From contig PEAM01000032.1 of assembly GCA_002753565.1 (NCBI GenBank), positions 1-42,739 of the forward strand: a DNA stretch of 42,739 bases, read 5' to 3'. The stretch's first letter is position 1. Each line of letters opens with the position of its first letter. Positions 6,058 through 23,568 of the stretch are shown piece after piece. Made by a program: the position numbers and the translations under genes. The notes under the pieces are model-generated. The model saw only the letters and a list, made by a program, of their open reading frames with translations. It was not told the DNA's origin and searched no databases. This DNA comes from Magnetococcales bacterium. GTDB lineage: Bacteria; Pseudomonadota; Magnetococcia; Magnetococcales; JADFYX01.

Positions 6058-7026
6058 TTAGTAGTGTAAACCAGATCGTGGGTCAAAAGGCATCTCTTTT
6101 TGCATCTGTCGGTAGTATGCCCGATTGGATTCACTCTTGGCCTGGGGCAGTACCACATTGAGAACCACCGTGTAATTGCCTGGTGGCTTTCCAGGGAGAC
6201 CCCGCCCTTTTAAAACCAATTGTTTGCCCGATTGGCTCCCTTCCGGAATGGTCAACTTGACTTGGCCTCCAAGGGTGGGAACCGTAACCGTTGCCCCCAG
6301 AGCCGCTTCCCAAGGAGCCAGAGGGAGATCCAGATAGAGATCCCGTCCTTCCAGGCGAAAGTGACGATGAGGTTTGATCTTGACTTCAAGAAACAGCTCA
6401 CCAATGCCGCCATTGTTGTGGCCATCTTTGGCGCCCAATCTGATTTTTTGACCCTCTTTTACCCCCGCAGGAATGGATACCTTGATACTTCTGTTCCCCG
6501 TGGGACCATGCAGGTTAAAGTTCCGCTTGCAGCCATGAAAAGCCTCCTCCAGGGAGATCTCTACGGTATGGCTGGTGGGGGCCGGCTTTGGAGCTTGATT
6601 GAAAGCGTGCGAAAAACCCGCCGATCCCGGTCCACCACTTCTTGAGAAATGGTTGAACCATGCGCCTCCCGGCTTGCCTCGTGTCTCTTGACCGAAGAGG
6701 TTGTTGAACATTTCATTCACATCAAAAGGCATCTCGGATGTGTTGGCATTGAAACCGGTTCTGCCACGACCACCAGGTTGACCGGAAAAGGAGCCTCCCT
6801 GTTTCCAGTAGTGATACAGTTGGTCATACTCCGCCCGTTTTTTTGTATCCCCCAAGACATCATACGCCTCAGAGATCTCTTTAAAACGGCTCTCGCTACC
6901 TAGGCTTTTGTTGACATCAGGATGGTGTTGTTGGGCCAGTTTTCTAAACTTTTTTTTAATCTCATCCTGAGTGGCCGACTGTTCAAGGCCGATTACCTTG
7001 TAAAAATCCTTAAACTCACTGCCCAT
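6058..7026 (-). CDS. cbpA: CbpA-type DnaJ co-chaperone
   Basis: J-domain co-chaperone that stimulates Hsp70 ATPase activity; the CbpA class lacks the zinc finger of DnaJ. The J domain covers residues 6-72 with the essential HPD motif (QQHHPDVNK). A Gly/Phe-rich linker (about 80-150) follows, then two beta-sandwich substrate-binding domains (VEISLEEAFHGCKRNF and later GATVTVPTLGGQVKLTIPEG), with no CxxCxGxG repeats. A sigma-32-like promoter lies about 150 bp upstream, fitting the neighbouring rpoH and hsp20. The name cbpA reflects domain architecture; DNA binding is not shown. Confidence 0.9.
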   Translation of the reverse strand: MGSEFKDFYKVIGLEQSATQDEIKKKFRKLAQQHHPDVNKSLGSESRFKEISEAYDVLGDTKKRAEYDQLYHYWKQGGSFSGQPGGRGRTGFNANTSEMPFDVNEMFNNLFGQETRGKPGGAWFNHFSRSGGPGSAGFSHAFNQAPKPAPTSHTVEISLEEAFHGCKRNFNLHGPTGNRSIKVSIPAGVKEGQKIRLGAKDGHNNGGIGELFLEVKIKPHRHFRLEGRDLYLDLPLAPWEAALGATVTVPTLGGQVKLTIPEGSQSGKQLVLKGRGLPGKPPGNYTVVLNVVLPQAKSESNRAYYRQMQKEMPFDPRSGLHY

Positions 7027-7173
7027 GACTATCTCCCAAATTAAACGGGGTCTGTTGGTTGAAAAAAAGGGTGGAGAGGTGGAAGAGTCCTGTCATCGAA
7101 TGAAAAGCGGTTACCAGGTTAAACCGGGTGCTATCCATGGGCTGCTATCCTACTCCCACTATACCTAACGTTG

Positions 7174-7202
7174 AGATAAGGTAGGAGAAGAGAAATATCA
7201 AG
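7174..7202 (-). promoter_or_regulatory. Sigma-32-like promoter upstream of the dnaJ-like gene
   Basis: Leftward: CTTGATA (7202-7196, preceded by CC), a 14-bp spacer and CCTTATCT (7181-7174). A 9-bp perfect inverted repeat (7180-7188 with 7205-7213) brackets the -35 and spacer and could be an operator. The predicted leader to the ATG at 7026 is about 140 nt. Confidence 0.55.
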
Positions 7203-7387
7203 GGTCTCCTACCCAGGCGGAGCCATTGTGGCATAGGCAGGGACCATATCCCTTAATTTGGAGCAAATGTCAATATCCGACGCACCAGATACCGCACCTT
7301 GTACAATCTCTTGAGTGGGTAGAAAAGGGCGCTGCCATGGTGTGCTTGTTGGTGAGTGGGCCAGGTTTGGCAGGTGTGTGGATTCTG

Positions 7388-7429
7388 ATAAAAAGCAGGC
7401 CGACCCCGTCTTGGAAAAGGGGGCCGGCC
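7388..7429 (-). terminator. Intrinsic terminator of the rimK-like gene
   Basis: GGCCGACCCC (7398-7407) pairs imperfectly with the G/C-rich arm 7419-7429. On the minus strand it is followed by a run of five T at 7394-7390. Its 5' flank and stem resemble the terminator at 4410-4447 (AAAAGCAGG next to a GGCC/CCGG stem), suggesting a common terminator type in this genome. Confidence 0.55.
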
Positions 7430-7461
7430 CACTTTAAGTATATCGGTTGGTTATCTGCCCG

Positions 7462-8436
7462 CTATTCGCTCTTTTCGTCACCCTTTTCAGGGGTTTTTTC
7501 CAAGCTTTTTTCGGCGCTCTTCTCAGCAACCTTCTTTTTACTGCTGGTTTTGCGGTTTTCTCGGTTTTCTCGGCTTTCTAAAAACTGGATAATCTTTCCA
7601 GCGACGTCAACATTGGTGGCTTTTTCCAGACCTTCCAACCCTGGCGAAGAGTTGACCTCCATGACGACCGGGCCATGGTTGGACCTTAACATATCCACAC
7701 CACAAACATTCAGCCCCATCAATTTGGCGGAACGGACGGCGGTGGAGCGCTCTTCCGGGGTGATGCGGATGGACTTGGCGTGGCCGCCTCTGTGAAGGTT
7801 GGAGCGGAAATCCTCTTCATTACCCTGACGCAACATGGCCGCCACCACTTTGTCACCAATAACCAGACAACGAATATCGGATGATCCCGCCTCTTTGATA
7901 TATTCTTGAACCAAAATATTGGCGTTCAGCCCTCGGAACGCTTCGATCATGCTCTTGGCAGAACGGTGGGTCTCAGCCAAAACCACACCAATCCCCTGGG
8001 TCCCTTCCAGCAATTTAATCACCACAGGGGCACCCCCCACCATATCGATGAGATCGTCAGTGAACTGGGTGGAGTGGGCAAACCCCGTAACAGGAAGGCC
8101 GATCCCAGCCCGTGAGAGAATCTGTAAACAGCGCAGTTTATCTCGTGATTTGGCTATAGCCTCGCTGCTGTTGAGGGTATAGACACCCATCATTTCAAAC
8201 TGGTTTAAAACAGCCAGACCATAAAAGGTGATGGAAGCACCGATTCTGGGAATAATGGCATCAAATCCGGTCAGACTTTTACCACCATAGCGGGCTTGAG
8301 GCCGGTGGGAAGTAATGTTCATATAGACTTTAAGTGTGTCGATAATCTCAATATCGTGTCCTCTGGATCTGGCTGCCTCCAAGAGTCTCTGATGAGAATA
8401 CAACTTGGCATTTCTGGCTAGCATGGCGATTTTCAT
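7462..8436 (-). CDS. rimK: RimK-type ATP-grasp ligase (S6 glutamate ligase family)
   Basis: ATP-dependent carboxylate-amine ligase; RimK adds glutamates to the C-terminus of ribosomal protein S6, and relatives make other amide bonds. The protein matches RimK from its first residues ([22 protein letters not shown]) through the ATP-grasp core ([40 protein letters not shown]) to the metal-binding end ([14 protein letters not shown]). After about residue 288 there is an extra tail of roughly 36 residues made almost only of Lys, Glu, Ser, Asn and Arg, not part of the catalytic fold. It is monocistronic, with a terminator 33 bp downstream and a long empty region upstream. The substrate is inferred from the family. 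Confidence 0.88.
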
Positions 8437-8851
8437 AAGTGCTCTTCCTCCAGTTTTTAGTCAATTTGGCTTAACAATCCATTGTATTCTATTTTGCCCT
8501 TTCCTCTTGGAATTTATCCCTGAAAAACTGGTCTGTCCGAGAAGTACAAAAGGCTTCTGCAATTTTGATATATAGCTCTTTTTGCAAAGAAATGAAAAAA
8601 AGTAAAAGAGAGAAAGAGTGGCCGGTTGTTTCTGCTGTAGTTGGTGGTGGTTCAGGTCAGGGTATCCCTTGAAACAGTCAACTATTATGATATCCCTGAA
8701 CCAGGTTTTCTCTCAGCCAAAAACCTGCCACGCTCGTTTTCAAGTTTGACGTGTTTGACGATGGGATAGGTCTGATGATCTTTTTTAACCGATGAAAGAT
8801 AGCACATTTCTTCCTGTAAATACAATAAGGGTGCGTTTTTTTTGAAAGCGG
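8437..8851. other. Intergenic region, no gene recognised
   Basis: About 415 bp between two minus-strand genes. It must hold the rimK promoter on its left side, but no convincing -35/-10 pair was picked. An imperfect inverted repeat (around 8649-8667 with 8689-8702) could form a weak hairpin. AT-rich tracts occur at 8575-8620 and 8815-8845. No open frame with protein-like composition was found. Confidence 0.5.
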
Positions 8852-10399
8852 TTATCCAGCTTGACCGCTGCCCTTTTCAGGTGGTTTATCCCTTTCCTGG
8901 TCTAACGTTGGGGGCGATTGACACTCCTTTGAAGGAGGCTCTTTCTTGATCAGGGCGCCGTAGGGGAAATAAAACAGGTTTCGCAGTCCGGCAACATTGG
9001 AAATATTGCGGGCAAATTTTCGTACCTCATACTGGAGCCCCTCTCGAACGGTCTCTTTATCCGCTGTACCGGACTCTTGGATGGTAATCAAGCGGTGCAG
9101 GGCGTGAGAGCCTAAAAAAAAGGAGAGAATAAAGATAAAGTCCAGCCCTGACAGGTTGACCGTAGGAAAATGGAGAAGGGTGGTGCCGGCGTTTTTAAGG
9201 TCGAATGTCAGCGATAACGTGTGGTCTGCTGTCCAGGTTGCCAGGGTTCCTCCGACAATTGGCCCAAGCATGGCGGCAATCCCGGAAACCAGAGAGCGCA
9301 TGGCAAGATATTGGGTGGCTTCCCCTTTGGGGGCCAGCTTCATGGCAATATTGCTGGAAGAAAGATTCACCCCCGCCGAAGAGACCCCACTCAAGGCGTG
9401 GATGGTAACAAGCAGAGGCAGAGTGAGCAGATAATGGTCCGGCATGGAGGTGAACGGCCAGATCAGCATGGTTAAAATCAGGATGGGGCCAGACTCCATC
9501 AATACCGAGCGGTTGCTGAAACGGTCGGCCAGAATACCCCAGATGCGGATAAAAAGGATGTTGGCCATTTGGCTCACCATAGCCAAAGCCATGATCAGGG
9601 TCATGGAGAGGTGGAGGCGGTTGAGCATGTAGACGGCAAAAAAGGGGGTTGCCAAATTAACCGCAAAGTTCCAGCTGGCCAGAAAGATTAAGAGTTGCCG
9701 AAAATTTTTATCTCGAAAGGGTTTGCCAAGGGTGGCAAACCAATCATCCTGATCGGGAGGGGGCATCTGCGGTTCAGGAATTTTAGACAGAGCCCAAACC
9801 CCCGAAAGCCCCAGCAATCCACCCAGGATGAACATGGCTGAGTAGATGTGAAGCAGGGAATAGGCCGGCTTAAGGAGGTCGACCCCATAACCGGCCACCA
9901 TGCCAAACAGGGAGCCGGCCAGGGTGGAGAAGATGATCCGGTTGGCGGCATGCTGCCCGCGCCGCTCTTCAGGGATAAGATCTCGCATCCAAGAGTGGTA
10001 GGATAACGAGGCCATGGTCCCCAGGCTGAAATACATGAACAAAAAGAAGAACAGGTAACCGGAGGTTGTGGTGCCAGGAAAGAGCCAGGGTAGTGCCGCG
10101 GCAAAAAACCAGAACATGCGACTGAAAAAAGCCCCCATCACCGCCAATCGCTTGCGCTGACGGACACGGCGAATGAGAAAAATAGCCGGTATCTGGGCAA
10201 TTTGGGAAAAAGGGGCCAGGGCGGCAATCAGGCCAACCTGAAAGGGGGTTGCTCCCAAAAGCAGGGCAAAAGCAACCAGAAAGGCGCCTCCGGTCACCAC
10301 ACCCATAATCTGGCTGCTGACACCATCGACAAGAAGCATTCGCATGCCTCGATCAAGTTCTGCTGGGGAAATCTGACTTTGTGGTGAAAGGAATCTCAT
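8852..10399 (-). CDS. MFS transporter, paralogue of the gene at 11809
   Basis: About 515 residues with some twelve hydrophobic segments arranged as two halves, the major facilitator pattern. The substrate is not recognisable. It is clearly paralogous to the protein at 11809-13329: both begin with an S-x-x-E-L-D-x-G-x-R-M-L-L motif, share a GGAFLVAFAL helix and the loop FSNRSVLMESGPI, and end with a cytoplasmic tail containing SNVAGLR. The start is ATG 10399 behind GGAG; a GTG at 10414 is also possible, but 10399 aligns with the paralogue's N-terminus. It follows the PsiE-like gene by a short gap and is probably cotranscribed with it. Confidence 0.82.
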   Translation of the reverse strand: MRFLSPQSQISPAELDRGMRMLLVDGVSSQIMGVVTGGAFLVAFALLLGATPFQVGLIAALAPFSQIAQIPAIFLIRRVRQRKRLAVMGAFFSRMFWFFAAALPWLFPGTTTSGYLFFFLFMYFSLGTMASLSYHSWMRDLIPEERRGQHAANRIIFSTLAGSLFGMVAGYGVDLLKPAYSLLHIYSAMFILGGLLGLSGVWALSKIPEPQMPPPDQDDWFATLGKPFRDKNFRQLLIFLASWNFAVNLATPFFAVYMLNRLHLSMTLIMALAMVSQMANILFIRIWGILADRFSNRSVLMESGPILILTMLIWPFTSMPDHYLLTLPLLVTIHALSGVSSAGVNLSSSNIAMKLAPKGEATQYLAMRSLVSGIAAMLGPIVGGTLATWTADHTLSLTFDLKNAGTTLLHFPTVNLSGLDFIFILSFFLGSHALHRLITIQESGTADKETVREGLQYEVRKFARNISNVAGLRNLFYFPYGALIKKEPPSKECQSPPTLDQERDKPPEKGSGQAG

Positions 10400-10426
10400 T
10401 GTCGATGGCTCCACACTCCGGGTGGA

Positions 10427-10906
10427 TTACTCCTTCTCTTTACCACTGGAGGCGGACCGTTTGGTTGGTGGCATGCTGGGAGAGACAACCACCGATGCCG
10501 TGCGTATCAGACCCAGGGCGATGATCAGCACACTGAAGGCGTAAATATCCAGGGAGGCCATTTTATCTTGGAACAGCTTGATCATGACCTCTCTTATGAC
10601 AAAAACAATGGCGGCATCAATGATAAATACCAGTCGCAGGCGTTTCAACTCAAAATATTCCACCAGGGAACGGGAGAGCTCTATCAGGATAAACAGAGAG
10701 AGAACATCGGCAATGAGCGCTTGGTAGCTTCCTGTTACTGTACCGGACATCAACAGGGTTCCCAGACCAAGAAAGAGCTTGCCCGCACCGATGGCAATAC
10801 CCAAGGTGAGAAAAAGCAGGATCACCCCAAAGACGGCATTGGTAATGTTGAAAAAGTAGGGGAGTAGACGTTCACGACAAAAAAAGTTCGACATCTGTTC
10901 AATCAT
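10427..10906 (-). CDS. PsiE-like inner-membrane protein
   Basis: A 159-residue protein with four hydrophobic helices and the pattern of the phosphate-starvation-inducible PsiE family: LIADVLSLFILIELSRSLVEYFE, then IDAAIVFVIREVMIKLF and a last helix FSVLIIALGLIRTASVVV. The biochemical role of the family is unknown. The Lys/Ser-rich tail is short. It starts 27 bp before the MFS gene, which it probably precedes in one transcript. Its divergent neighbour is the DUF599 gene. Confidence 0.75.
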   Translation of the reverse strand: MIEQMSNFFCRERLLPYFFNITNAVFGVILLFLTLGIAIGAGKLFLGLGTLLMSGTVTGSYQALIADVLSLFILIELSRSLVEYFELKRLRLVFIIDAAIVFVIREVMIKLFQDKMASLDIYAFSVLIIALGLIRTASVVVSPSMPPTKRSASSGKEKE

Positions 10907-11060
10907 CCTGATCTCTCGTTAATGAGTAAGAAACGGCACTCCTGTGCCTGTGAGGTGTGGCCATCTCTTGACAATGAGAAGAACACCTTGTTGAAAGCCA
11001 CTGTTCTGGGGCATATTAGCCAGAATTATACATTAATTGTCTCACGATGGAATGGAAACC

Positions 11061-11808: not shown

Positions 11809-13329
11809 TTGATAGACTTTACCCCCAAAGAGAGCATCAGTTCCAAAGAGTTGGATCACGGGTTGCGCATGTTGCTGTACGATGGCGCCTGCACCCAGGT
11901 GATGGGTGTCCTGGCGGGGGGGGCCTTTCTGGTGGCTTTTGCCCTCCACCTGGGCGCTTCTCCCATGATGATCGGCCTGATCGCTGCTCTGGGGCCGCTT
12001 ACCCAAATTCTCCAAATACCGGCTATTCTACTCATCGACAAACTACGTCGGCGCCGGGCGGTGGTGGTTATCGCCTCCCTGGCCAGCCGGATTTTCTGGC
12101 TTCCCGCTGCCCTGCTGCCGTGGATTGCTCCTGAACCGCTGCAGGCTCCTCTTCTTCTGCTCTGTCTTTTTCTCTATTATGGGTTGGGTACGGTGTCGGG
12201 TCTGGCCTGGACCTCCTGGATGCAGGATTTTATTCCGTCCAAGATCTTAGGGCAATACATGGGGCGGCGCATGGCCATCGCTGTTGGTGTTGGTGCTGTG
12301 GTCAGTCTGGCGGCTGGATTGGGGGTGGATTTTGGCAAAAAATGGTTTGATGAGGTCACCCTCTATGCGTTCTACCTTGGGGTAGGTGGTCTGTTCGGTC
12401 TGGCTGGGGTCTTTTTTCTGGCTCGCACCCCCGAACCCAGCATGAAAGTGACCTCTACAGACAATTTTTTACAACTGCTTAAAGAGCCGTTTCTCGATAA
12501 AAACTTTCGACAACTTCTTATCTTTCTCGGCTCGTGGAGCTTCGCTGCCAACATGGCGGCCCCCTTTTTTACTGTCTACATGCTCCAACGTCTGCACATC
12601 AGTATGGGATGGATTGTGGGTTTTTCTGTTCTCAGTCAACTGTCCAACATGGCCGCTTTGCGCCTGTGGGGGCGATTGGCCGACCGGTTCAGCAACCGTT
12701 CGGTACTCATGGAGTCTGGCCCCATTTTTATTCTTTCCCTTCTTATCTGGCCTTTCACCTCCATGCCGGACACCTATTTTTTGACCCTGCCGCTGTTGGC
12801 CCTGATCCATATTCTTACCGGTATCTCCACCGCCGGTGTGATGCTGGGTAGTGGCAATATCGCCCTGAAGCTGGCCCCCAAGGGGCGCTCCACCAGTTAT
12901 CTGGCGGTCAACGGAATGGTCTCTGGTCTGGCGGCTACGTTAAGCCCTCTGTTGGGCGGCCTGTTGGCTACCTTGCTGGATGGTGAGGCGTTGACCATGG
13001 ATCTGAAATGGAGCTCCGCGGCCGGAGCCACACGGCTGTTTTTACATGCGGTGGATATTCGCGGTCTGGATTTTCTGTTTATCCTGGCGTTTGTTTTTGG
13101 GATCTATGCCCTTCACCGACTTCTCTCCGTCCAGGAGGAGGGGACCGTGGAAAAAGGGGTGGCTCTTCAGGCTTTTCATGTGGAGGTGCGCCGGGCGGTT
13201 CAGAGCATCTCCAACGTGGCGGGTTTGCGTATTCTAACCTCCTTCCCCTTCGGAAAACTGGTTGCTTCTCCCTCAAAACAGCCTACTATCAAGGTGCGTA
13301 TCACCCAGTCAGATAGCCAAGCCGGATGA
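11809..13329 (+). CDS. MFS transporter, paralogue of the gene at 8852
   Basis: A 506-residue carrier with the same two-half, twelve-helix layout as the divergent paralogue. The proposed start is TTG 11809; this keeps the N-terminal block SSKELDHGLRMLLYDGA that aligns with the paralogue, although the ribosome site is weak. A cytoplasmic stretch between the last helix and the C-terminus carries SISNVAGLRILTSFPFGKL, closely matching SNVAGLRNLFYFPYGAL in the other copy. This tail motif is not a general MFS feature and may be a shared regulatory or interaction site. Substrate unknown. The dispersed repeat at 13339 begins ten bases after the stop. Confidence 0.82.
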   Translation: MIDFTPKESISSKELDHGLRMLLYDGACTQVMGVLAGGAFLVAFALHLGASPMMIGLIAALGPLTQILQIPAILLIDKLRRRRAVVVIASLASRIFWLPAALLPWIAPEPLQAPLLLLCLFLYYGLGTVSGLAWTSWMQDFIPSKILGQYMGRRMAIAVGVGAVVSLAAGLGVDFGKKWFDEVTLYAFYLGVGGLFGLAGVFFLARTPEPSMKVTSTDNFLQLLKEPFLDKNFRQLLIFLGSWSFAANMAAPFFTVYMLQRLHISMGWIVGFSVLSQLSNMAALRLWGRLADRFSNRSVLMESGPIFILSLLIWPFTSMPDTYFLTLPLLALIHILTGISTAGVMLGSGNIALKLAPKGRSTSYLAVNGMVSGLAATLSPLLGGLLATLLDGEALTMDLKWSSAAGATRLFLHAVDIRGLDFLFILAFVFGIYALHRLLSVQEEGTVEKGVALQAFHVEVRRAVQSISNVAGLRILTSFPFGKLVASPSKQPTIKVRITQSDSQAG

Positions 13330-13563: not shown

Positions 13564-13608
13564 TTTTTTTTTGGGCTAACTGTAAAAAACAGTCGGTCCC
13601 AAAAAAAA
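13564..13608. other. Extended hairpin next to the OmpA terminator
   Basis: A T run plus GGG (13564-13575) pairs with CCC plus an A run (13598-13608), and inside it ACTGT (13579-13583) pairs with ACAGT (13589-13593). With the adjoining terminator hairpin this makes a compact double-hairpin between convergent genes. It could act on rightward transcripts from the MFS unit. Confidence 0.5.
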
Positions 13609-13638
13609 GAGGCGCCGTCTCTATGGAAACGGCGCCTC
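13601..13638 (-). terminator. Intrinsic terminator of the OmpA-like gene
   Basis: GAGGCGCCGT (13609-13618) and ACGGCGCCTC (13629-13638) form a perfect 10-bp G/C-rich stem with a 10-nt loop. On the minus strand it is followed directly by a run of eight T (13608-13601). It lies 24 bp beyond the stop of the gene at 13662. Confidence 0.85.
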
Positions 13639-13661
13639 CAGCCTGCTAAGAAACCTCAACC

Positions 13662-14627
13662 TTACGGCATAAGTTCCATCTGAACTCGACGGTTCATGGC
13701 CCGACCGTCACGGGTTTCGTTGTTGGCAATAGGCCTGTTCTCGCCAAATCCCCTGGTCATCAGTCGGTCTGAGGAGACCCCCCGTGAGACCAGTTCGTTA
13801 AAGACCGTTCTGGCCCGTTTATCCGAAAGCCTCTGATTGAAGGCATCGCTGCCTCTGGAGTCGGTATGTCCTTGAATTTCTACCTTGAGGAGCGGATTCT
13901 TTCTGAAAACCGTTGCCGCATTGTCAAGAATAACCTCTCCTCCGGGCTTGATGGAGGAGCGACTGGTATCGAAGTTGAGGTTTTGAAGAACCCAACAGCC
14001 CTGGATATTGACCGTTGCGCCAATGGGTGTGCCTGGACATCTGTCACGGGCATCAATAACGCCGTCTTTATCGGTGTCCGGTGGGCAGCCATCAGGATTA
14101 ACCTTCAGGTTGGGTGGTGTCCCTGGGCAGCGATCTTTGTCGTCTGTTACGCCATCCCCATCTTCATCTGGGATACAACCGTTACGGTCAACCTTGGCTC
14201 CTCTTGGGGTTCTGGGACATTGGTCATCGGCATCAAAGACACCATCGCCATCGGAATCGATAGGACATCCATCATCATCAACCTTGACACCTCTTGGGGT
14301 ATCTGGGCACTGGTCCTCACCATCGTGAACACCGTCACCATCGGAATCGATAGGACATCCGTCGGATGATACCTTCACACCTGACGGGGTATCGGGGCAT
14401 TGATCATCCGGGTCCATGACGCCATCGCCATCGCTGTCGACAACTTTTTTGCCAAACGGGCAGAAATAACATTGGGTCCCTGTGCTGGCAAGGGTGTTGT
14501 TTCCAGACTGCGGGTGCCACTGTGCATAGCCTTTGCGTTCACCAAAATTTTCTCTCGGGGCGGTGAAAACGCATCCAGCAAGCGTCATCACCAACAGGGT
14601 TATTCCTAATAGCTTCAATAATTTCAT
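13662..14627 (-). CDS. OmpA-like lipoprotein with five thrombospondin type 3 repeats
   Basis: Outer-membrane-linked peptidoglycan-binding protein. A lipoprotein signal peptide ends in the lipobox LAGC (Cys19). Five tandem repeats of about 26 residues follow (residues about 63-205), each with the Asp-rich calcium-binding pattern DSDGDGV-x-D-x-x-D-x-C-P-x-TP-x-G. The C-terminal 110 residues are an OmpA domain, with NFDTSRSSIKPG, EIQGHTDSRGSDAFNQRLSDKRA and GFGENRPIANN. The usual OmpA beta-barrel is absent; the repeats replace it as a rigid spacer. The gene is 104 bp downstream of the dikinase unit in the same orientation and could be read with it. A strong terminator follows. Confidence 0.92.
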   Translation of the reverse strand: MKLLKLLGITLLVMTLAGCVFTAPRENFGERKGYAQWHPQSGNNTLASTGTQCYFCPFGKKVVDSDGDGVMDPDDQCPDTPSGVKVSSDGCPIDSDGDGVHDGEDQCPDTPRGVKVDDDGCPIDSDGDGVFDADDQCPRTPRGAKVDRNGCIPDEDGDGVTDDKDRCPGTPPNLKVNPDGCPPDTDKDGVIDARDRCPGTPIGATVNIQGCWVLQNLNFDTSRSSIKPGGEVILDNAATVFRKNPLLKVEIQGHTDSRGSDAFNQRLSDKRARTVFNELVSRGVSSDRLMTRGFGENRPIANNETRDGRAMNRRVQMELMP

Positions 14628-14731: not shown

Positions 14732-16060
14732 TTATTCGCCGCCAGAAGCTTTAATCTCCTCCTTTTTTCCCTGCTCGTTAACGGTGACCGCCATTCGGGT
14801 TTGAACCAATCGGTCGATGGCAGCGCCAAGGCGTGAGTGGTCCCAAGCTGAGTTTTTCTTCATGACATTTGAAATCAGAGCGACAAAATAGCGTTTCTGT
14901 TCCGGCCCGGTAGGGGCTGGTGATTCGATGATCGCCAGGGAGTTCATTAAATTGTCTCGATTACCCTGGTATTTTCCGCATGTAAAGCCCGCTTCGGCTT
15001 GGCAGCGGTAGAACGACCCACTTTTAAAAAAAGCTGAAGAAGCGGCCAACTCCGGCGCAAAGATGTAGCGGTATCGACGGCTGGTGGTATAGAGAAATTT
15101 TTTCATCTCCAGGCTTGACCATAAATCCACCAAGCGGCCCTGCTCCAGACGCAGAAGAAAACGCGCCATCTCTCGGGGTGTCGCCACCGATCCCCCTTCA
15201 CCGGGAATAAGTGTTTTGGCGGTTTTGGTCCAGAAACTACCTACTTTAAAGTGTTTCCACCTAAGGCCGACCGCCTCCATGGGTTCAACCACGGCGCTGC
15301 GGGCCAGATGCCAAAGGGCCGGTTTGGGGGTGGTGCGAAAAAAGTGTGCCTCTTCCTCTTTGGATGGCGGATAGCGATCCCCAAAGTGGCGCAACAAAAC
15401 GGTCTCTTTCCAGACTGTTGCAGCGGCCCCGTTGGCAGATGCAGAGATCATGTGGTCGACCCATTCGGCCAAGGTAAAGTGATCGCCGGGTTGGATGGTG
15501 GCAGAACGTACGGTGTTGGTTTGGGGGTCATAAAGAGGCACCTTATGTTCATCCCATTTCACCCACTCTCCTGCGGTCACTCTTCGGCTGCGTAAAAGAG
15601 TGCGACGCGCCTCGATATCTGGGAAGGCGCGAGCCAGTTCGTGAAACAGGCCCAGCATGGTCAAAACCTTGCCAACGCTACCCGGCATCTGAGGGCGATC
15701 GGCACGAACCCCCGCCCAGACCAGCCGAGAGGGATCGCTCATATCTGCCACAACCACACCATAAGAGGGGTCCCGGCTCAAAAATACCCCCTCAAGGGCC
15801 TTTTGCAGGGCAGGGTCCCGGTGGCTTTCATCCAGATCGAGGGTTGGATCGGTTTGGGTCAGGTTGAGACGAATGGTCTGACTCTCCTGTCTTGCGCCTT
15901 CGGGTAGTCGCGGTGCCCCTCGGGCACCCTGCTTGGGATCAAATCCCTGCAGGCGGCTGATGCCCATCTCCTGCCAGCCATCCAGGGGATAGGCAAACAG
16001 ATTGGCTGCGCTGGCTGTCAGCACAAAGCTGACCAGCAGGGTATACAGCATGGGCTTCAT
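14732..16060 (-). CDS. Exported beta-lactamase-fold serine hydrolase (dikinase unit, gene 4)
   Basis: A 442-residue protein with an N-terminal signal peptide (FVLTASAANLFA) and the three active-site motifs of penicillin-recognising enzymes: S128-V-G-K131, an S-A-N triad in MISASANGAAA, and K-S-G in AFFKSGSFYRC. Two cysteines in the segment after K-S-G could form a disulfide, as expected for a periplasmic protein. The segment between the motifs is longer than in class A beta-lactamases, so a carboxypeptidase, esterase or non-catalytic binding role is as likely as antibiotic hydrolysis. The start codon overlaps the stop of the dikinase gene as ATGA. A related but shorter protein is encoded at 19001. 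The native substrate is unknown. Confidence 0.78.
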   Translation of the reverse strand: MKPMLYTLLVSFVLTASAANLFAYPLDGWQEMGISRLQGFDPKQGARGAPRLPEGARQESQTIRLNLTQTDPTLDLDESHRDPALQKALEGVFLSRDPSYGVVVADMSDPSRLVWAGVRADRPQMPGSVGKVLTMLGLFHELARAFPDIEARRTLLRSRRVTAGEWVKWDEHKVPLYDPQTNTVRSATIQPGDHFTLAEWVDHMISASANGAAATVWKETVLLRHFGDRYPPSKEEEAHFFRTTPKPALWHLARSAVVEPMEAVGLRWKHFKVGSFWTKTAKTLIPGEGGSVATPREMARFLLRLEQGRLVDLWSSLEMKKFLYTTSRRYRYIFAPELAASSAFFKSGSFYRCQAEAGFTCGKYQGNRDNLMNSLAIIESPAPTGPEQKRYFVALISNVMKKNSAWDHSRLGAAIDRLVQTRMAVTVNEQGKKEEIKASGGE

Positions 16061-18999
16061 GGGGTGTCTCCCCTTTTTTCTGCCCCAATATAAAGGGGTT
16101 GGTCAAGGTTTATGGTGCCCTCAGAGGTGGGAAGGGGCAGCTGCTCGGCTACCCGCTGGTCTGCCACCTGTGCCCCTCTCTGTACCAACGGTCGAATCTG
16201 CATCAGCCACACTTTTCCTTCGGCAAAAGCGAACTCCACATCCCAAGGCAAAAGAGCGCCCGACGCATCTTTGGCCGGAGGATAACGCTGCGCCACCTCC
16301 TGGGCCAGTTCACGCAGCTGCATCAACTCTTTGTCATTGAGCACCGGACCGGTTAGAGCCGGTCGCCAGCCAACACCGCCTTGGGGCAGGAGAACCCGTT
16401 TGTAGGGGGCTTTGGCTTCGGCTAGTACTATATGGGTATTGTCGGGGCGCAATACAAGGGTCTGGGCACTTTCATTATCGACGGCACCTCCCACCCCCCA
16501 GGCGACAGAGACCGTGATACCCGGACCACCACCGGTCAGGTCGGTGGTGACTAAAACCCCGGATTTTTCCGCCGACACACTCTGCATCAGCAACACAGAG
16601 GCATAGACATCCTCGGGATTGGAGAGAATCTGGCTGCGCCACGACATGCTGCGCCACGTATAGACCGAAGCCCATACTCGGCTGATCCCTTCAACCTGCT
16701 GCTGAAACCCCACCACATGGGGTACGGTCTCGTTAAGGCCGGCACCGGTAAAACCCGGCAGATCCTCCACGTTGGTATCGGAGCGGACAAACAGGCCAAC
16801 CCCCTCCAACTCACCAAACTCCTCTATCATGGTCTTGGCCAACAGGGTGCGGGTTGGTTGATCCAGAGTGAGTTTTAACACCGCTTGCCGTGCCAACTCC
16901 AGCTCGTGTTTAAAGGCCGCTTCATCCAGCAGGCCGGCTCTTAGTTTCTTGAAGGCCTGGCGTGCCCGTTTGAGGGGGGCATCCTCTCCGGCCCCCACAT
17001 GGCGGGCAAAAATACCAAACGGCAGAGCCACCGCAGGGGCAACCCGGCCAGGGAAAAGACGTGCCAGCTCCCCCACATTGGCGGCTTTGGGACCGACAAC
17101 CCGTCCAGAAAGAGCAGCATGCAGAGCTTTGAGGGGCAGGGGGGTCTCCAAAGAGAGATCCGGTGCGGGAGCGATAATACGCTCTTGATTTTGAAAATCA
17201 GGTCCCGCCTTTACCGTGGAACGCTCTTCGACCAGATGCAGAATGGCGCGTCCATCGGTGGCTGCAATAAGTTCAACAAGGCGACCATCGTAGGGGGTCA
17301 AGCTCCGACCTACCTCAGGCGTGATCCCCACATTGGGGATGCCCAGATTGCGTGCCAGCATCTGTACGTGAGATAACGGATTGCCTTCACCCAGGGTGAT
17401 AATACCCGCCACCGGTGACAGATCCGATACAGTCTCTGGCAGCAGAACAATATCGTTGCGCCCCATCTCCACGCCATCACGAATTTTTGCCGCATCCAGA
17501 ATACGCAGCCGCCCCTGGGCCAGGCCGGGGTTCAGCGCCCACATGCCCGATTTTTGTTCCCCAAAGAGCAGAGAGGCACTACCCACCGCTTGGCGGGCAT
17601 CAGCCATCAGAACCTCCACCGTGTCAGCCAGGGGCATGAGGATCGAGCCACGCAACAGGTCATCGACAAAGCGGGCTGCTACAGGTTCCAAGGCGCCGTA
17701 CCAGGTTAAAGGCTCAGAAAAAGCGTGGCGCACGCTCCCCTCTGCCCACTGCATGGGCAGTCGCAAACGCTGGATATGGCGCCCATACACCTGGGCTGCC
17801 TTCTCCTTATTGTCAGACAGCAGGTGGGTTAAGGGTTCCTGCAGAGCCTGCCACTCTCCGGGTGAGATCCAGCCGGTAAACCGAGCCGCTTCCAGCAGAG
17901 TTTTAACCCGAATCACTGCTCCACGGCGAGAAGCCGGTTGAGGAAGAGCCCTGGCTCTGGCAAGGAGTTCTGCTTCGAGTTCTGCCATGATTTCCAGGCG
18001 CTGCAGGCGGCCCGGCCCATCCTGGGCACGTAGCAGCGTCCCATGCAGGGCTCTCATGGCCTCCACCAGGAGGGCTACTCTGATCTCAGGATCTGGCTCC
18101 CCTTTGGCTCGGTTTAAGGGGGTTCGCACCCCACCATCGGACTCCGGCAGGGATCGGGCCAGAGCCGCAATCCGCCCCTCTCGCCCCTCAATCCCATAGA
18201 GTTGCTCCAGTTCTGCGGTCAGTTCAAGCCCCATCTGGCGATCGGCCGGAGGTAAAGAGGGGTTGGCAGCCAGCCAGTCATGGACGCGGGATGCGCTCAG
18301 GGTGTCGGGACGACCATGAATTTCCACCCGCATGGGTTCAAAATCCCGCCATTTTTCAGCCAAGGTTTGGGAGAGGCGACGAATCAGTCGGGTGGGATCG
18401 TTGCCGCCACCGTGATGGGGAATGGTCCGAACCAGCTCTCGTGCCAGAATAAAATGGTCCACCATCCAGGTACGGTCTGCCAGCAGCGCCAGCAGCAGCT
18501 TTCGCCCGGACTCCTGCTCGTCTTCTATCTGAACATGGCCTCGGTAGCTTTTGGCCTTACGCATGACCCAGCCGTCGTCCACTTCCAGCAGATAGCGCTC
18601 CAGAGGTAAGGCCCTCAGGCGTATCTGCCGGGGTGTCTCTGTGAGAAGCTCTGACGGTTTCAAGGCCGCAAAGAGTGTCCCCACAGGCCAACCCAACTCT
18701 GCCAGCCGTCGCTGTTGGGCAGAGTGCTGACCGTGTTGACGCCCGCCACCATGCTTGGCGCAGGCAAAGGGTTTTGGGGGGAGAACAGCCCCATCTTTGC
18801 AAAACCAACGGATGGCATCGAAAGGGCCCCGAGGGTTGGCTTTCATGGCGGCAACCAGAAGGCGAGCCTCTTTGAGAATAGCCTCTTTGGGCGGACGCAT
18901 GAACTCGGGAGGAGCGCTGACAGCCACCGAGGAGAGACATAACAGGGTCAGACCAGCGGCTAGTTGGATGAAAGGCAGGATAGAACGGCTCTGGTCCAT
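16057..18999 (-). CDS. Exported GWD-like dikinase (PEP/pyruvate-binding fold)
   Basis: About 980 residues. A Sec-type signal peptide (helix FIQLAAGLTLLCLSSVAV, cleavage after VSA) is followed by some 480 residues not recognised. A swivelling phosphohistidine domain centres on His544 in NPLSHVQMLARNLGIPNVGI. Last comes an ATP-binding PPDK_N-type domain (Lys638 in GPKAANVGEL; Arg739 in VRSDTNVEDLPGFTGAGL; end at WLMQIRPLV, about 936). His domain before ATP domain is the order of glucan water dikinases, the reverse of PEP synthase and PPDK, and the motifs LSHV..ARN and NVEDL.G..AGL also look GWD-like. Such enzymes transfer the beta-phosphate of ATP to a glucan. Start: ATG 18999 behind GGGGGAAAA, one base after the stop of gene 2. 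Export of an ATP-dependent dikinase is odd. The glycan acceptor is inferred. Confidence 0.75.
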   Translation of the reverse strand: MDQSRSILPFIQLAAGLTLLCLSSVAVSAPPEFMRPPKEAILKEARLLVAAMKANPRGPFDAIRWFCKDGAVLPPKPFACAKHGGGRQHGQHSAQQRRLAELGWPVGTLFAALKPSELLTETPRQIRLRALPLERYLLEVDDGWVMRKAKSYRGHVQIEDEQESGRKLLLALLADRTWMVDHFILARELVRTIPHHGGGNDPTRLIRRLSQTLAEKWRDFEPMRVEIHGRPDTLSASRVHDWLAANPSLPPADRQMGLELTAELEQLYGIEGREGRIAALARSLPESDGGVRTPLNRAKGEPDPEIRVALLVEAMRALHGTLLRAQDGPGRLQRLEIMAELEAELLARARALPQPASRRGAVIRVKTLLEAARFTGWISPGEWQALQEPLTHLLSDNKEKAAQVYGRHIQRLRLPMQWAEGSVRHAFSEPLTWYGALEPVAARFVDDLLRGSILMPLADTVEVLMADARQAVGSASLLFGEQKSGMWALNPGLAQGRLRILDAAKIRDGVEMGRNDIVLLPETVSDLSPVAGIITLGEGNPLSHVQMLARNLGIPNVGITPEVGRSLTPYDGRLVELIAATDGRAILHLVEERSTVKAGPDFQNQERIIAPAPDLSLETPLPLKALHAALSGRVVGPKAANVGELARLFPGRVAPAVALPFGIFARHVGAGEDAPLKRARQAFKKLRAGLLDEAAFKHELELARQAVLKLTLDQPTRTLLAKTMIEEFGELEGVGLFVRSDTNVEDLPGFTGAGLNETVPHVVGFQQQVEGISRVWASVYTWRSMSWRSQILSNPEDVYASVLLMQSVSAEKSGVLVTTDLTGGGPGITVSVAWGVGGAVDNESAQTLVLRPDNTHIVLAEAKAPYKRVLLPQGGVGWRPALTGPVLNDKELMQLRELAQEVAQRYPPAKDASGALLPWDVEFAFAEGKVWLMQIRPLVQRGAQVADQRVAEQLPLPTSEGTINLDQPLYIGAEKRGDTP

Positions 19000-19000
19000 C

Positions 19001-19948
19001 TTATTTTCCCCCTGTTCGGGTGGTGTTGGAGGTTGCTCTGTTGGGCGCAAGCGGTAAAACCGTCTCTATGGCGGGCACCAGTGCCTGCAGAATATTTTCG
19101 CCGTTGGTATCTTCAACCATGCCCACCAGAATATAGCGGCGCCATTGGGGGCCCCAAACCAAGGCAGCATCGGCGTGCCATATTTTCCAGGTACCGGATT
19201 TTCGATAAATTTTAGCCTCAGGGGCGGCACGGCGTAAGGCTTTGACAAATTTGTGGTTGATTTTTGGGTCGACCAGCAGATCCAGCATCTCTTGAGAGCG
19301 TTGCGGGTTGACCAGACGTCCGGTAGCCAGAAGATAAAAGAAACGGCAGACCTGGGTGACGGTGGCGCCATGGGATAACCCATGGATGGGGTCTGGCCGC
19401 CTTCGACCAGCCTGTTGATACCGTTTTCCCACCCACAGCCCGCCGCCCAGGGTTTCGTCATACAGGTGATAGCGAGGATCTGTCAGTACCTGATTAACCC
19501 GGTCCAACCCACCCAAACGGTCGATCATTCGGGTGGCGGCCGCGTTGCTGGAGACTCGGATCATGGCAGCCAGGTCGGCATTGATGGCCTTTGTTCTCTC
19601 GAGAGTGCCCTCCTCAAACTGTTGGAATGCCGCCAGCAAAATAGCGATTTTGGGTAGGCTGGCGGCATACATCATGGAGCGACCGTTGATTCGGGCAAAG
19701 CGTGGCTGCAGCGGATGGGAGAGGTCAACAAGACCCACAGCCATCTTGCCTCGGTCCATCAGACGGGCCCAGGCTCTGTTTTCCCTTAAGCGGCGGATGA
19801 GTTTTTCCTGCATGGCCTCATCAACCTGCTCATAGAGGGGTGACCAGGGCAGGTTGGAGGCGGTGACAGGCAAGGGGGGGGGCGCGGCCCAAACGGCTGT
19901 CATACCACTCATGACCAAAACCAATGCCAGACCAAAAATGCGCATCAT
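19001..19948 (-). CDS. Exported beta-lactamase-fold serine hydrolase (dikinase unit, gene 2)
   Basis: A 315-residue protein of class A beta-lactamase fold. A signal peptide (MMRIFGLALVLVMSGMTAVWA) precedes the catalytic motifs S97-L-P-K100, S133-S-N135 and K-S-G in IYRKSGTW. The Glu166 region of true class A beta-lactamases is not obvious, so antibiotic hydrolysis should not be assumed. The start is ATG 19948, sharing one base with the stop of the transporter gene (TGATG), which gives the signal peptide; the upstream extension of the frame to 20401 lies inside the transporter gene. Its own stop is one base before the dikinase start. The pairing with the hydrolase at 14732 suggests related steps on peptidoglycan or a lipid-linked glycan. 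Confidence 0.8.
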   Translation of the reverse strand: MMRIFGLALVLVMSGMTAVWAAPPPLPVTASNLPWSPLYEQVDEAMQEKLIRRLRENRAWARLMDRGKMAVGLVDLSHPLQPRFARINGRSMMYAASLPKIAILLAAFQQFEEGTLERTKAINADLAAMIRVSSNAAATRMIDRLGGLDRVNQVLTDPRYHLYDETLGGGLWVGKRYQQAGRRRPDPIHGLSHGATVTQVCRFFYLLATGRLVNPQRSQEMLDLLVDPKINHKFVKALRRAAPEAKIYRKSGTWKIWHADAALVWGPQWRRYILVGMVEDTNGENILQALVPAIETVLPLAPNRATSNTTRTGGK

Positions 19949-21351
19949 CACTCTTTTCCCAAGGTTGGAAACCGTCTGCGTCGCTCCCGGAGGATGGCAA
20001 CCGCAACCCCCATCCAAGCCAGAATAAGAGCCATGTTTAAATAGAAAAAGCTCTCGGTATTCCACGCCATGAGACGCACCCCCGCCAGCACGGTAAGAGC
20101 CGCCAAAACATCGCCCAAGCGGACACATACCGTATCGATAGCGGTTTTGGCTTTGTAGAGAATCTCTTGAGGAACAGGTAACCACAACACATGACGGGCG
20201 GTATTGGTTACCGAGTAGTTGACCGCATTTTCCGCCGTTTTTCCCCAGGTTAGAGCGGTAATCCCCCCCAGGGAGGAGATGGCGGCGTAACCGGCCAGGG
20301 AAATAAGCGGCGGTGTCAGCATCAAGGCCGTTAATCCACCGTGGCGCAGCAGACGGGAGACCACAAAAGCCTGCAACAACACCCCGATCAGATTGACCCA
20401 AAAGTACAGCCGACCATAAAAGGTGGTGGTGGCATCACGTAGAATCCGGCTGGCACTCTCCCCTTCCAGCCCCTCCAGTGAGGCTTTCAGAGTCTCTTGA
20501 ACCACCGCAAATAGAATGTTTTCGCCATTGGTAACCACCCAGTTGAGCAGCAGCATGAACAGGGCAATAAGAAACAGGTAACGGTCGGTAAATATCAGCC
20601 TCAGCCCGCCGCGAGAGCCCTTTTTTGCCGGCTCCAAGCTCTTTTTTTCCGCCCTGGCTGACCCATGGCCTGTTCGGTCGATGTGATGAATAATCCAGAG
20701 GGCGACTAAAAGAGGCAGAGGGGCAACCAGCAACAGATGGTAGGCGTCAAGGTTGAGGGCTTTAACCAGGCGATCGGTAATCCAACTACCGGCAACCGCA
20801 CCAATGGAGGCACCCAGCGCAATAAACGGAAAGAGCCGTCGTCCGGCGGCTTCATTGTATAGATCTGCCGCATAGGCCCAAAACTGGGCAATGACCATGA
20901 CGGCAAAAATACCCACCCAGACATAAAACGCCAACCCGGCAAAGGGCATGTTGTCCAACAAAAAACCGGGACGAAGCAGCCAGAAAAGCGGGAAAAGTGT
21001 CGAAAAAAACAGGCCGACCAAGGTTAACAGGCGTACCCTGGACCAGCGGTTGGCATAATAGGCATAGAGGGGCATGATGCCTATTAAAACCACCGTCTGC
21101 AAAAAACTGGAATAGCCCTTTACCTCCAGTTTGGACAGAGAAGAGAACAGGGAGACAGCCAACCAACCCTCCCGTACCGGCTTGACCAGGTAGTAGGCGA
21201 CCAGAATCAGGAATACACAGGCAAACAGCCACAACGCCCCCGTGGACTCATGGGGCATGATGCGGGTAAACGGCGATAAAATCCGCGAGATTCGAAGGCC
21301 GGATTGGGAAGGGGGAGAGGCCCCCTGCTGAGGTTCGGAGAGTTGGGTCAT
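19948..21351 (-). CDS. Nucleotide-transporter-like carrier (NTT/AAA family related)
   Basis: A 467-residue membrane protein with about twelve hydrophobic helices. The motifs YYLVKPVREGW after the first helix and VIAQFWAYAADLYNEAAGRRLFPFIALGASIGAVAG in helices 4-5 resemble ATP/ADP translocases of obligate intracellular bacteria and their free-living relatives rather than sugar carriers. The substrate is not proven. It is the first gene of the four-gene unit, with a good sigma-70 promoter about 90 bp upstream and a TGATG junction to the next gene. Because a downstream product is an exported ATP-using dikinase, supply of a nucleotide to the periplasm is an attractive inference. It could instead move lipids, glycans or peptidoglycan fragments. 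Confidence 0.7.
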   Translation of the reverse strand: MTQLSEPQQGASPPSQSGLRISRILSPFTRIMPHESTGALWLFACVFLILVAYYLVKPVREGWLAVSLFSSLSKLEVKGYSSFLQTVVLIGIMPLYAYYANRWSRVRLLTLVGLFFSTLFPLFWLLRPGFLLDNMPFAGLAFYVWVGIFAVMVIAQFWAYAADLYNEAAGRRLFPFIALGASIGAVAGSWITDRLVKALNLDAYHLLLVAPLPLLVALWIIHHIDRTGHGSARAEKKSLEPAKKGSRGGLRLIFTDRYLFLIALFMLLLNWVVTNGENILFAVVQETLKASLEGLEGESASRILRDATTTFYGRLYFWVNLIGVLLQAFVVSRLLRHGGLTALMLTPPLISLAGYAAISSLGGITALTWGKTAENAVNYSVTNTARHVLWLPVPQEILYKAKTAIDTVCVRLGDVLAALTVLAGVRLMAWNTESFFYLNMALILAWMGVAVAILRERRRRFPTLGKE

Positions 21352-21441: not shown

Positions 21442-21469
21442 ATTATACACTATAACTCAGCATTGGCAA
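21442..21469 (-). promoter_or_regulatory. Sigma-70 promoter of the dikinase unit
   Basis: Leftward TTGCCA (21469-21464), a 16-bp spacer and a perfect TATAAT (21447-21442). The start of transcription would be near 21435, giving a leader of about 84 nt to the ATG at 21351. It is divergent from the promoter at 21504. Confidence 0.65.
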
Positions 21470-21709: not shown

Positions 21710-21750
21710 ACCCCCACAACTTGATGGATCAACAATTAAGGAAAATAATC

Positions 21751-23568
21751 ATGTGGAACGAACTGGTGGATGGATTGAGATCAAAAATGGTACGCCTGGG
21801 CCTGCTCGGTCTGCTCATCATGATACCGGCTACCCTGTCGGCTGGTGCGACAGAAACTGGCCAGGCCATTACGTGGTCACTCTTGATCATGAACCTGCTG
21901 GGGGGACTCGCCCTGTTTCTGTTTGGACTGGAAATGCTCGCCGACTCTCTGAAGCTGGTAGCCGGAGACCGAATGCGCATGATCCTCTCCTCACTGACCA
22001 CCAACCGCTTCTCTGGCGCTCTTACCGGGGCAGGTGTGACGGCGGTGGTGCAGTCCTCTTCGGTGACGACGGTGCTTGTGGTGGGTTTTGTCAGCGCGGG
22101 ACTGATGACCGCAGAGCAGTCTCTGGGTATCATTATGGGGGCCAACATCGGCAGTACCATGACCTCCCAGTTGATTGCATTCAATGTGACCAAACATGCC
22201 ATGTGGCTGGTGACATTGGGGTTTGCCATCACTTTTTTGGCCAAAGAGGATTGGCTGAAACAGATTGGCAAGGTGGTTATGGGGTTGGGGCTGATTTTCT
22301 TTGGTATGGGGTTCATGTCCGCAGCCATGCAGCCCCTGCGCAACTATGCACCGTTTCTTGAACTGATGACCAAGATGTCCAACCCCCTGTTGGGGATTCT
22401 TGTCGGAACCCTCTTTACGGCGTTAATCCAGTCCTCGGCAGCCACCATGGGCATTGTCATTGTCATGGCTGGTCAGGGGATGGTGACTCTGGAGGGGGGG
22501 ATAGCGTTGGCGTTCGGAGCTAATATCGGCACCTGTGCTACCGCTCTATTGGCCTCCATCGGTAAACCCAGTGCCGCCGTACGAGTCGCTCTGTTTCATA
22601 TTCTGTTCAATGTGCTGGGTGTTGTCATCTGGCTGCCCTTTATCGGCTATCTGACCGATTTTGTCGCCTGGCTCTCCCCCGCCAGTACCGAGCTGGAGGG
22701 GATGGCGCGTCTGGCGGTGGAAGCGCCCCGGCAAATTGCCAACGCCAATACTGTTTTCAACGTCGTCAATACGGCACTTTTTATCTGGTTTACCGGCCCT
22801 CTTTCCCGGCTGCTGACACGATTGGCTCCGGATAAGGTGGTTGCGGCCGATACAACGTCAACCTTTAAACCGGTCTACCTGGATAACCTGCTCTTATCCA
22901 ACCCGGCGATTGCCCTACAGGTTGCCCGGCTTGAGGTGCTCAGCCTGGGAGAGCGGGTTCAGGCTATGGTTGCCAAGGTTCCTGAGGTGATTTTGAGCGA
23001 CAGCGCCCAACAGCTGAGTCAGGTGGAGGAAAAAGATCAGGAGATTGATGGGCTGCATCAGGAGATTATGGAATTTCTTGGTGAACTCTCCCGACACGCC
23101 CTCACCAAAGAGCAGACCAGCGACCATCTCAAGCTGGCAGAGACGGTAGACTATCTGGAGCAGTTGGCGGATGTGGTCGAATCGGACCTGGTGCGGCTTG
23201 GCCGAGAGCGGGCCAGTTCGGAGGTCGCTCTCAGTCCGGTTTTTAGTGAACTTTTCATCCCATTGCACCGTCTTGTGGAGGAAAGTCTCGAAGCTGTCTT
23301 GCTGGCCCTCTCTACGGGTGATGTCAGGCTGGCCAGGCAGGCTCGGGACCGAAAAGAGGAGATGGGGGCTATTCTCTCCTCTGAGGCGTTTCAAAAACTC
23401 CGTTCTCACGATCCCGAGGCCCCCTCTCGACTGGAAATCTATGCTATCGAGAAGGATGCCCTCGAAAAAACCAAAAGGCTCTTCTATTTTGTTCGCCGTA
23501 TGGCGCGGAGCCAGACCGGACGCAAAAAGCAGAAAAACCGGTTGGAGCCTCTGCCAACCTCCGTATGA
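21751..23568 (+). CDS. Na+/phosphate cotransporter with PhoU-like tail
   Basis: A 605-residue member of the NptA/YjbB-type Na/Pi cotransporter family. Two inverted membrane repeats carry the QSSS motif (TAVVQSSSVTTVLVVGF) and the QSSA motif (TALIQSSAATMGIVIVM), which form the substrate site. After about residue 380 the protein becomes soluble and helical, like PhoU, with two antiparallel helix bundles. Start: ATG 21751 behind AAGGAAAA; in-frame ATG 21724 and TTG 21721 lie upstream without a comparable ribosome site. Some relatives export phosphate. The structured RNA just upstream may be its leader. A PsiE-like gene is in the window but not linked to it. Confidence 0.9.
   Translation: MWNELVDGLRSKMVRLGLLGLLIMIPATLSAGATETGQAITWSLLIMNLLGGLALFLFGLEMLADSLKLVAGDRMRMILSSLTTNRFSGALTGAGVTAVVQSSSVTTVLVVGFVSAGLMTAEQSLGIIMGANIGSTMTSQLIAFNVTKHAMWLVTLGFAITFLAKEDWLKQIGKVVMGLGLIFFGMGFMSAAMQPLRNYAPFLELMTKMSNPLLGILVGTLFTALIQSSAATMGIVIVMAGQGMVTLEGGIALAFGANIGTCATALLASIGKPSAAVRVALFHILFNVLGVVIWLPFIGYLTDFVAWLSPASTELEGMARLAVEAPRQIANANTVFNVVNTALFIWFTGPLSRLLTRLAPDKVVAADTTSTFKPVYLDNLLLSNPAIALQVARLEVLSLGERVQAMVAKVPEVILSDSAQQLSQVEEKDQEIDGLHQEIMEFLGELSRHALTKEQTSDHLKLAETVDYLEQLADVVESDLVRLGRERASSEVALSPVFSELFIPLHRLVEESLEAVLLALSTGDVRLARQARDRKEEMGAILSSEAFQKLRSHDPEAPSRLEIYAIEKDALEKTKRLFYFVRRMARSQTGRKKQKNRLEPLPTSV

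Follow-up and report, generated by a model that had tools for sequence, protein, structure and literature searches.

Which joint task, if any, is carried out by four tightly packed genes on a contig of a Magnetococcales bacterium? The window, i.e. the whole stretch of DNA that was analysed (contig PEAM01000032.1, 42,739 nucleotides (nt)), is contig 6 of a genome of 3.87 Mb. The original prediction, made from the letters of this window, read the genes as a possible unit for ATP-driven glycan modification in the periplasm. Sequence comparison across genomes gives good support for a real, conserved module rather than a local coincidence. That this module has one function, in which nucleotide reaches the periplasm, the dikinase DIK phosphorylates an envelope component and two serine enzymes process it, has about an even chance of being correct. 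The four genes are:

19948 to 21351, minus strand: NTT-family (TLC/AAA) carrier, type I, 467 amino acids (aa); Pfam TLC and a profile match to solved NTTs.
19001 to 19948, minus strand: BLA1, PBP-A-like serine enzyme, predicted secreted, 315 aa; Pfam Beta-lactamase2, motifs and signal peptide.
16057 to 18999, minus strand: DIK, predicted secreted dikinase, 980 aa, ATG at 18999; PPDK_N, AF2 model and catalytic residues.
14732 to 16060, minus strand: BLA2, beta-lactamase/PBP-fold serine enzyme, predicted secreted, 442 aa; Beta-lactamase2, motifs and signal peptide.

A survey of 398 genomes from the phylum found full-length catalytic DIK in 22. BLA2 occurs in precisely the same set, of which 21 also have BLA1. 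Nineteen of the 22 belong to one genus, Mariprofundus according to named records, a bias which would also fit old neighbours without a joint function. For this reason, the test was redone in Gammaproteobacteria using one genome per genus (124 genomes). Catalytic DIK was present in 10 of these, BLA2 in the same 10 and BLA1 in 9, and the carrier adjoined in 6; a further gammaproteobacterial genome, G432, which is cut by a contig end, has BLA2 and BLA1. Here, co-occurrence holds across genomes all of different genera, which argues against mere neighbourhood.

Rare joint occurrence elsewhere would have counted against the original prediction; the neighbourhood of DIK shows instead that the genes keep company in many other genomes. 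Around 79 DIK loci from gamma-, beta-, zeta- and deltaproteobacterial lineages, Acidobacteria, Nitrospirae and Gemmatimonadota, BLA2 was found at 70, BLA1 at 58 and an NTT at 43, with the next commonest family at 6. For loci with ≥ 5 kb on both sides (n = 37) the numbers were 36, 31 and 23, respectively, and using better profiles (n = 36) they were 35, 33 and 25, all four genes being present at 24. DIK and BLA2 were on the same strand in 69 of 69 cases, and in 37 the overlap measures 4 nt exactly; BLA1 and the carrier vary in position and strand between genomes. Since membership stays while order and strand vary, the association is more than frozen synteny, which again speaks against mere neighbours. 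What holds strictly is the pair DIK-BLA2, whose genes mostly overlap; BLA1 lies close by, as does the carrier at about two thirds of the well-flanked loci. The Mariprofundus-type loci L033, L035, L037 and L043 have one BLA1 paralogue on either side of the module, and the carrier gene often lies between the two.

The NTT lineage also changes at the locus. Two NTT types with 19-25% identity occur at module loci, the window type (type I) and another one. In a quick tree of DIK, type I carriers stand in separate places and well-supported branches force at least two changes, which suggests that one NTT took the place of another at loci of this kind. Such replacement would imply selection for keeping an NTT. 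Several independent recruitments are not forced by the carrier tree alone once the label of L052 is corrected, and this stronger version was given up for the weaker one based on DIK. A change of lineage is also a further argument against old neighbours lacking a joint function, an explanation we find hardly credible.

Two damaged loci were observed. In genome G239 (L049, C1:454000-473900), the open reading frame (ORF) 8057-10972 encodes a full-length DIK homologue without the catalytic histidine and the ATP-binding motifs, and neither BLA2 nor BLA1 was found in this genome; either the homologue is a pseudoenzyme, or its scaffold has taken on a new function. In G405 (L169), the DIK frame at 6832-9885 is interrupted by a TAG within the swivel domain, BLA1 was not found in the genome and no carrier occurs in the 20 kb read around DIK, which indicates either that the module is decaying or that the assembly is faulty. 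Because both genomes lack partners where DIK is damaged, parts of the module seem to be lost together.

Acquisition by the window genome likewise appears to concern the whole unit. DIK and BLA2 were not found in any of four genomes of the same genus, and the nearest aligned relatives of all four proteins lie in the Pseudomaricurvus module L081 (identity 52% for DIK, 54% for the carrier, 60% for BLA2 and 64% for BLA1). The gene order of L081 is that of the window, carrier-BLA1-DIK-BLA2, but with a longer gap between BLA1 and DIK. The G+C content is 57.1% in the module and 52.3% in the remainder of the window, other parts of which reach 58%. Judged by these comparisons, transfer into this genome as a unit is likely.

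ORFs and junction letters (GTGATGATG, TAAGATGG and CCATGAAG) confirm the description of four same-direction genes, all on the minus strand, with tight junctions. The one good promoter described with them was also recovered:

21442 to 21469, minus strand: likely promoter of the four-gene unit, TTGCCA-16-TATAAT, 11/12 of a σ70-like consensus (pattern match only).

This site (21469-21442, upstream of the carrier gene) is the best promoter-like site of the window, which has 7 such sites against 3.8 ± 2.0 expected; the six others reach 9/12. No RNA families were found in the window. Signal-peptide-like N-termini were called by a simple scripted rule with interior segments as controls. DIK, BLA1 and BLA2 of the window have such an N-terminus, as do 66 of 72 DIK, 28 of 28 BLA1 and 27 of 31 BLA2 relatives, compared to 0-5% of the control segments, which agrees with the signal peptides proposed earlier for three products. 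DIK has an invariant cysteine pair (C67/C80), and so has BLA2 (C353/C361, 31 of 31); both pairs would fit an oxidising compartment.

DIK was recognised by PPDK_N (95.4 bits, cut-off 27), which occurs in all 30 members scanned, whereas PEP-utilizers stays just below its cut-off in the protein scan (19.3 bits, cut-off 23.1). The AF2 model (pLDDT 89.6, pTM 0.88) consists of a helical domain, a swivel, a flexible linker and an ATP-grasp domain in that order:

17575 to 18912, minus strand: N-terminal helical acceptor domain, residues about 30-475; AF2 model, no match in Foldseek, conservation.
17230 to 17574, minus strand: swivel (phosphohistidine) domain, residues about 476-590; PEP-utilizers match at 520-558, histidine aligned to PEP synthase.
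16165 to 17181, minus strand: C-terminal ATP-grasp domain, residues about 607-945; Foldseek match to rifampin phosphotransferase, invariant residues.

The predicted catalytic His544 (codon 17368-17370) aligns with the catalytic histidine of PEP synthase and is kept in 72 of 72 sequences, as are the ATP-grasp residues K638, R739, D920, E922, Q934 and R936. By its ATP-grasp domain and mobile-domain histidine, DIK is assigned on sequence grounds to the PPDK/PEP-synthase dikinase superfamily; the PEP/pyruvate TIM-barrel domain of PPDK/PEP-synthase proper is absent according to Pfam, the model and Foldseek. Two further proteins of the genome have stronger PEP-utilizers matches than DIK, which is therefore an additional enzyme.

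The part that would hold the substrate is the unusual one. Residues 28-480, modelled alone with AF2 (pLDDT 92.4), give an all-helical acceptor domain of ~445 residues, for which Foldseek returned no PDB match with E ≤ 0.001; no Pfam family matches the N-terminal part in any of 30 members. Its conserved core comprises C67, C80, a GGGxQHG motif, W144, R153, E159, R207 and H228. On the evidence of the model, the region is a new acceptor domain. A carbohydrate-binding or TIM-barrel fold was considered for it and rejected, given the helical model, the missing PDB match and the lack of a carbohydrate-binding module (CBM) in Pfam.

This bears on the idea of a periplasmic GWD-type glycan kinase acting on periplasmic glucan, capsule or a peptidoglycan sugar. 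From the original prediction of a GWD-like dikinase, the domain order stands, with the swivel before the C-terminal ATP-grasp, as do the conserved residues of both domains, and the secretion signals are consistent with such a kinase. The carbohydrate-binding fold it had suggested looking for in the N-terminus does not appear, no GWD-specific or CBM family occurs in 30 DIK members, and no glycosidase or glycosyltransferase is among the recurrent DIK neighbours. Since the N-terminal fold is helical and has no solved relative, nothing in the acceptor domain points to a glycan, which is left as one option among several; a glycan kinase of this type is improbable.

Among solved folds, the ATP-grasp domain comes closest to rifampin phosphotransferase (5hv2/5hv3/5hv1, E about 1e-13), with further matches to HpeI and PEP synthase. 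DIK could thus be read as a secreted relative of this resistance enzyme and BLA1 and BLA2 as beta-lactamases, the module serving antibiotic detoxification. Both serine enzymes do belong to Beta-lactamase2, as originally proposed for two beta-lactamase-fold proteins (BLA1 77.9 bits, BLA2 29.2 bits, cut-off 22), and 30 of 31 BLA2 relatives match this family. However, the domain order of DIK differs from that of rifampin phosphotransferase, and for its acceptor domain no solved counterpart was found, not even the rifampin-binding domain. Class A resistance models stay far below their cut-offs (bla_class_A 22.9 vs 200), and the putative omega-loop of BLA1 showed no recognisable conserved glutamate; D164 is found in 26 of 28 sequences, the alignment and position of this loop being uncertain. 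A search of 72,556 plasmid records at E 1e-40 found no DIK, and a plasmid-borne resistance module was rejected on this ground. Overall, detoxification is highly improbable. Anti-phage defence was also rejected, as PADLOC gave no match.

In fold and active site, the serine enzymes resemble D,D-peptidases. BLA1 has SxxK (S97, K100), SxN (S133, N135) and KSG (K250-G252), kept in 28 of 28 sequences, and BLA2 has SxxK (S128, K131), SxN (S208, N210) and KSG (K346-G348), kept in 31 of 31. The best solved relative of BLA1 is PBP-A Tll2115 (E about 1e-4), a D,D-carboxypeptidase and endopeptidase (PMC11189452); for BLA2, no solved sequence relative was found under E 0.01. Fold and motifs suggest that both may act on peptidoglycan stem peptides.

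Membership of the carrier in the NTT family is sound, since a profile built from 29 carriers of the module aligns with the solved NTTs 9j3n and 9j3j over near full length (E 3e-32 and 6.5e-24). Pfam TLC matches the window carrier with 26.7 bits (cut-off 21) and 25 of 29 module carriers at E ≤ 0.01. A PF03219 profile search of its own genome gave no match; the direct protein scan passes the cut-off, so this reflects a limit of the search and not absence. The original prediction of an NTT-like carrier thus stands for the family. For the exchange of ATP against ADP it does not, as seen at K155, E245, E385 and K527, the charged residues which AtNTT1 requires for this exchange and which were placed from the profile alignment at chain positions 71, 161, 301 and 443 (offset 84). 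The window carrier has S82, G147, E277 and D414 there, window-type carriers in general S/A/G/Y, G, E/D and D, and the other type W, D, E/D and K. K155 and E245 are accordingly replaced in all module carriers, the E385 position is acidic in 29 of 29, and K527 has become aspartate in one of the two types. In AtNTT1, K155E abolishes binding of ADP and ATP, and no exchange takes place with E245K (PMC3306366). It would therefore be unsafe to credit the module carriers with ordinary ATP/ADP exchange. K57, K402 and R411 of the carrier are invariant and may hold phosphates, and a switch to ATP-for-AMP exchange is, speculatively, one reason for the altered residues.

The same module could also perform other chemistry: the carrier would take up or export another nucleotide or a phosphorylated metabolite, and DIK would use another donor or act on a metabolite, e.g. 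in scavenging or salvage. The absence of K155, E245 and K527 from window-type carriers is in line with this, as are findings on characterised NTTs beyond the main clade, among them an NAD transporter, and on one NTT that moved no nucleotide when assayed (PMC5381601); some DIK loci also have no carrier nearby. Yet all checked ATP-grasp residues of DIK are kept in 72 of 72 sequences, and salvage gives no obvious role to two serine enzymes of the D,D-peptidase type. Other chemistry is unlikely, though a serious candidate.

For the reading as a periplasmic phosphorylation module, linkage, protein families, signal peptides and intact active-site residues of DIK, BLA1 and BLA2 are read in the sequences themselves; from these we infer the periplasmic location, the phosphoryl donor, the direction of transport and the substrate. 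The carrier would move nucleotide across the inner membrane, in the simplest case ATP out and the dikinase product AMP in. Periplasmic DIK would split ATP, park a phosphoryl group on His544 and pass it to a substrate held by the helical domain. This substrate would most likely be peptidoglycan-derived or another envelope component, because BLA1 and BLA2 share fold and active site with D,D-peptidases and related serine enzymes; the two would trim it before or after phosphorylation. In its most specific form, a periplasmic ATP economy, an NTT-type carrier with altered binding residues would export ATP for AMP, a secreted dikinase of new fold would phosphorylate peptidoglycan or another envelope component, and two dedicated serine enzymes would handle the substrate. 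This form is put forward tentatively and is somewhat unlikely.

Several points weigh against this reading. The window carrier is altered at three of the four key charged residues of AtNTT1, in which K527E abolishes binding of ATP, not of ADP (PMC3306366). Roughly one well-flanked locus in three showed no carrier close to DIK, and a search of the whole genome G069 with the window carrier returned no NTT. The acceptor-domain fold has no solved relative, the substrate of DIK is one that we infer, and the localisation of the enzymes follows from signal-peptide prediction. Hence, the original interpretation holds for linkage, secretion signals and the NTT family, and was given up for the glycan, ATP/ADP exchange and the partner lipoprotein described below.

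Further genes of the window lie close to the module. An OmpA-like lipoprotein with thrombospondin type 3 repeats (13662-14627, minus strand) lies 104 nt downstream of BLA2 and is followed by a strong terminator-like hairpin (13608-13639). It had been named as a fitting envelope partner; it does not recur among the 79 DIK loci and was rejected as a member. Divergent from the carrier gene is a Na+/Pi cotransporter with PhoU domains (21721-23568, plus strand). Phosphate uptake next to a module that releases phosphate is a suggestive pairing; the cotransporter does not recur near other DIK loci and was also rejected. Two similar MFS-type membrane proteins of ~510 aa are encoded nearby on opposite strands (8852-10414, minus; 11809-13329, plus) and are apparently paralogues.

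The periplasm is commonly regarded as free of ATP. A conserved secreted dikinase with an NTT-family carrier would, if the reading is true, power chemistry outside the inner membrane, and the module suggests an undescribed use of nucleotide energy there in many unrelated environmental bacteria. It would then also offer a function for the NTT carriers of free-living bacteria, which, according to one report, are unexpectedly widespread and for the most part uncharacterised (PMC5381601). The system is open to genetics, because the module is compact, patchy and carried by cultured isolates; DIK and BLA2 occur in Mariprofundus ferrooxydans PV-1, Parahaliea, Halioglobus and Guyparkeria. The superfamilies are known. 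In the open-access literature, no description was found of the four-gene module, which may be described elsewhere, nor of this combination of parts, the subfamily of secreted dikinases or their acceptor fold.

Among known systems, GWD has an acceptor part, a phosphohistidine domain and a C-terminal ATP-grasp in that order. DIK shares this order with GWD/PWD and differs in being bacterial and predicted secreted, in lacking a CBM and a GWD Pfam match, and in its different, all-helical N-terminal domain. The second comparison is with rifampin phosphotransferase (RPH) and the two-component small-molecule dikinases HpeHI, CreHI and PpsAB, which work by an ATP-grasp and a swivel histidine (PMC12167813). 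DIK, known from sequence and model, has the same two elements for converting ATP to AMP, and RPH provides the nearest solved ATP-grasp domains. The order is ATP-grasp, acceptor, swivel in RPH and acceptor, swivel, ATP-grasp in DIK, whose acceptor domain does not match those of the RPH/HpeHI type. The histidine motif is GEGNxLSH in DIK and GG-xxx-H in HpeH and its relatives. No secretion signal is described for these enzymes (PMC12167813), whereas DIK has a predicted one. PBP-A, a D,D-peptidase that stands near the class A beta-lactamases, is described from cyanobacteria only (PMC11189452); its similarity to BLA1 is weak and the SxxK-SxN spacing is 36 residues in BLA1 versus 61, yet both share the SxxK, SxN, K-[ST]-G active site. 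For NTTs, partner enzymes of the module kind were not described in the literature found, the hosts of the module are free-living and its carriers have K155 and E245 replaced; nevertheless, these carriers are homologous to AtNTT1 and chlamydial Npt1 over nearly their full length and keep an acidic residue at the E385 position.

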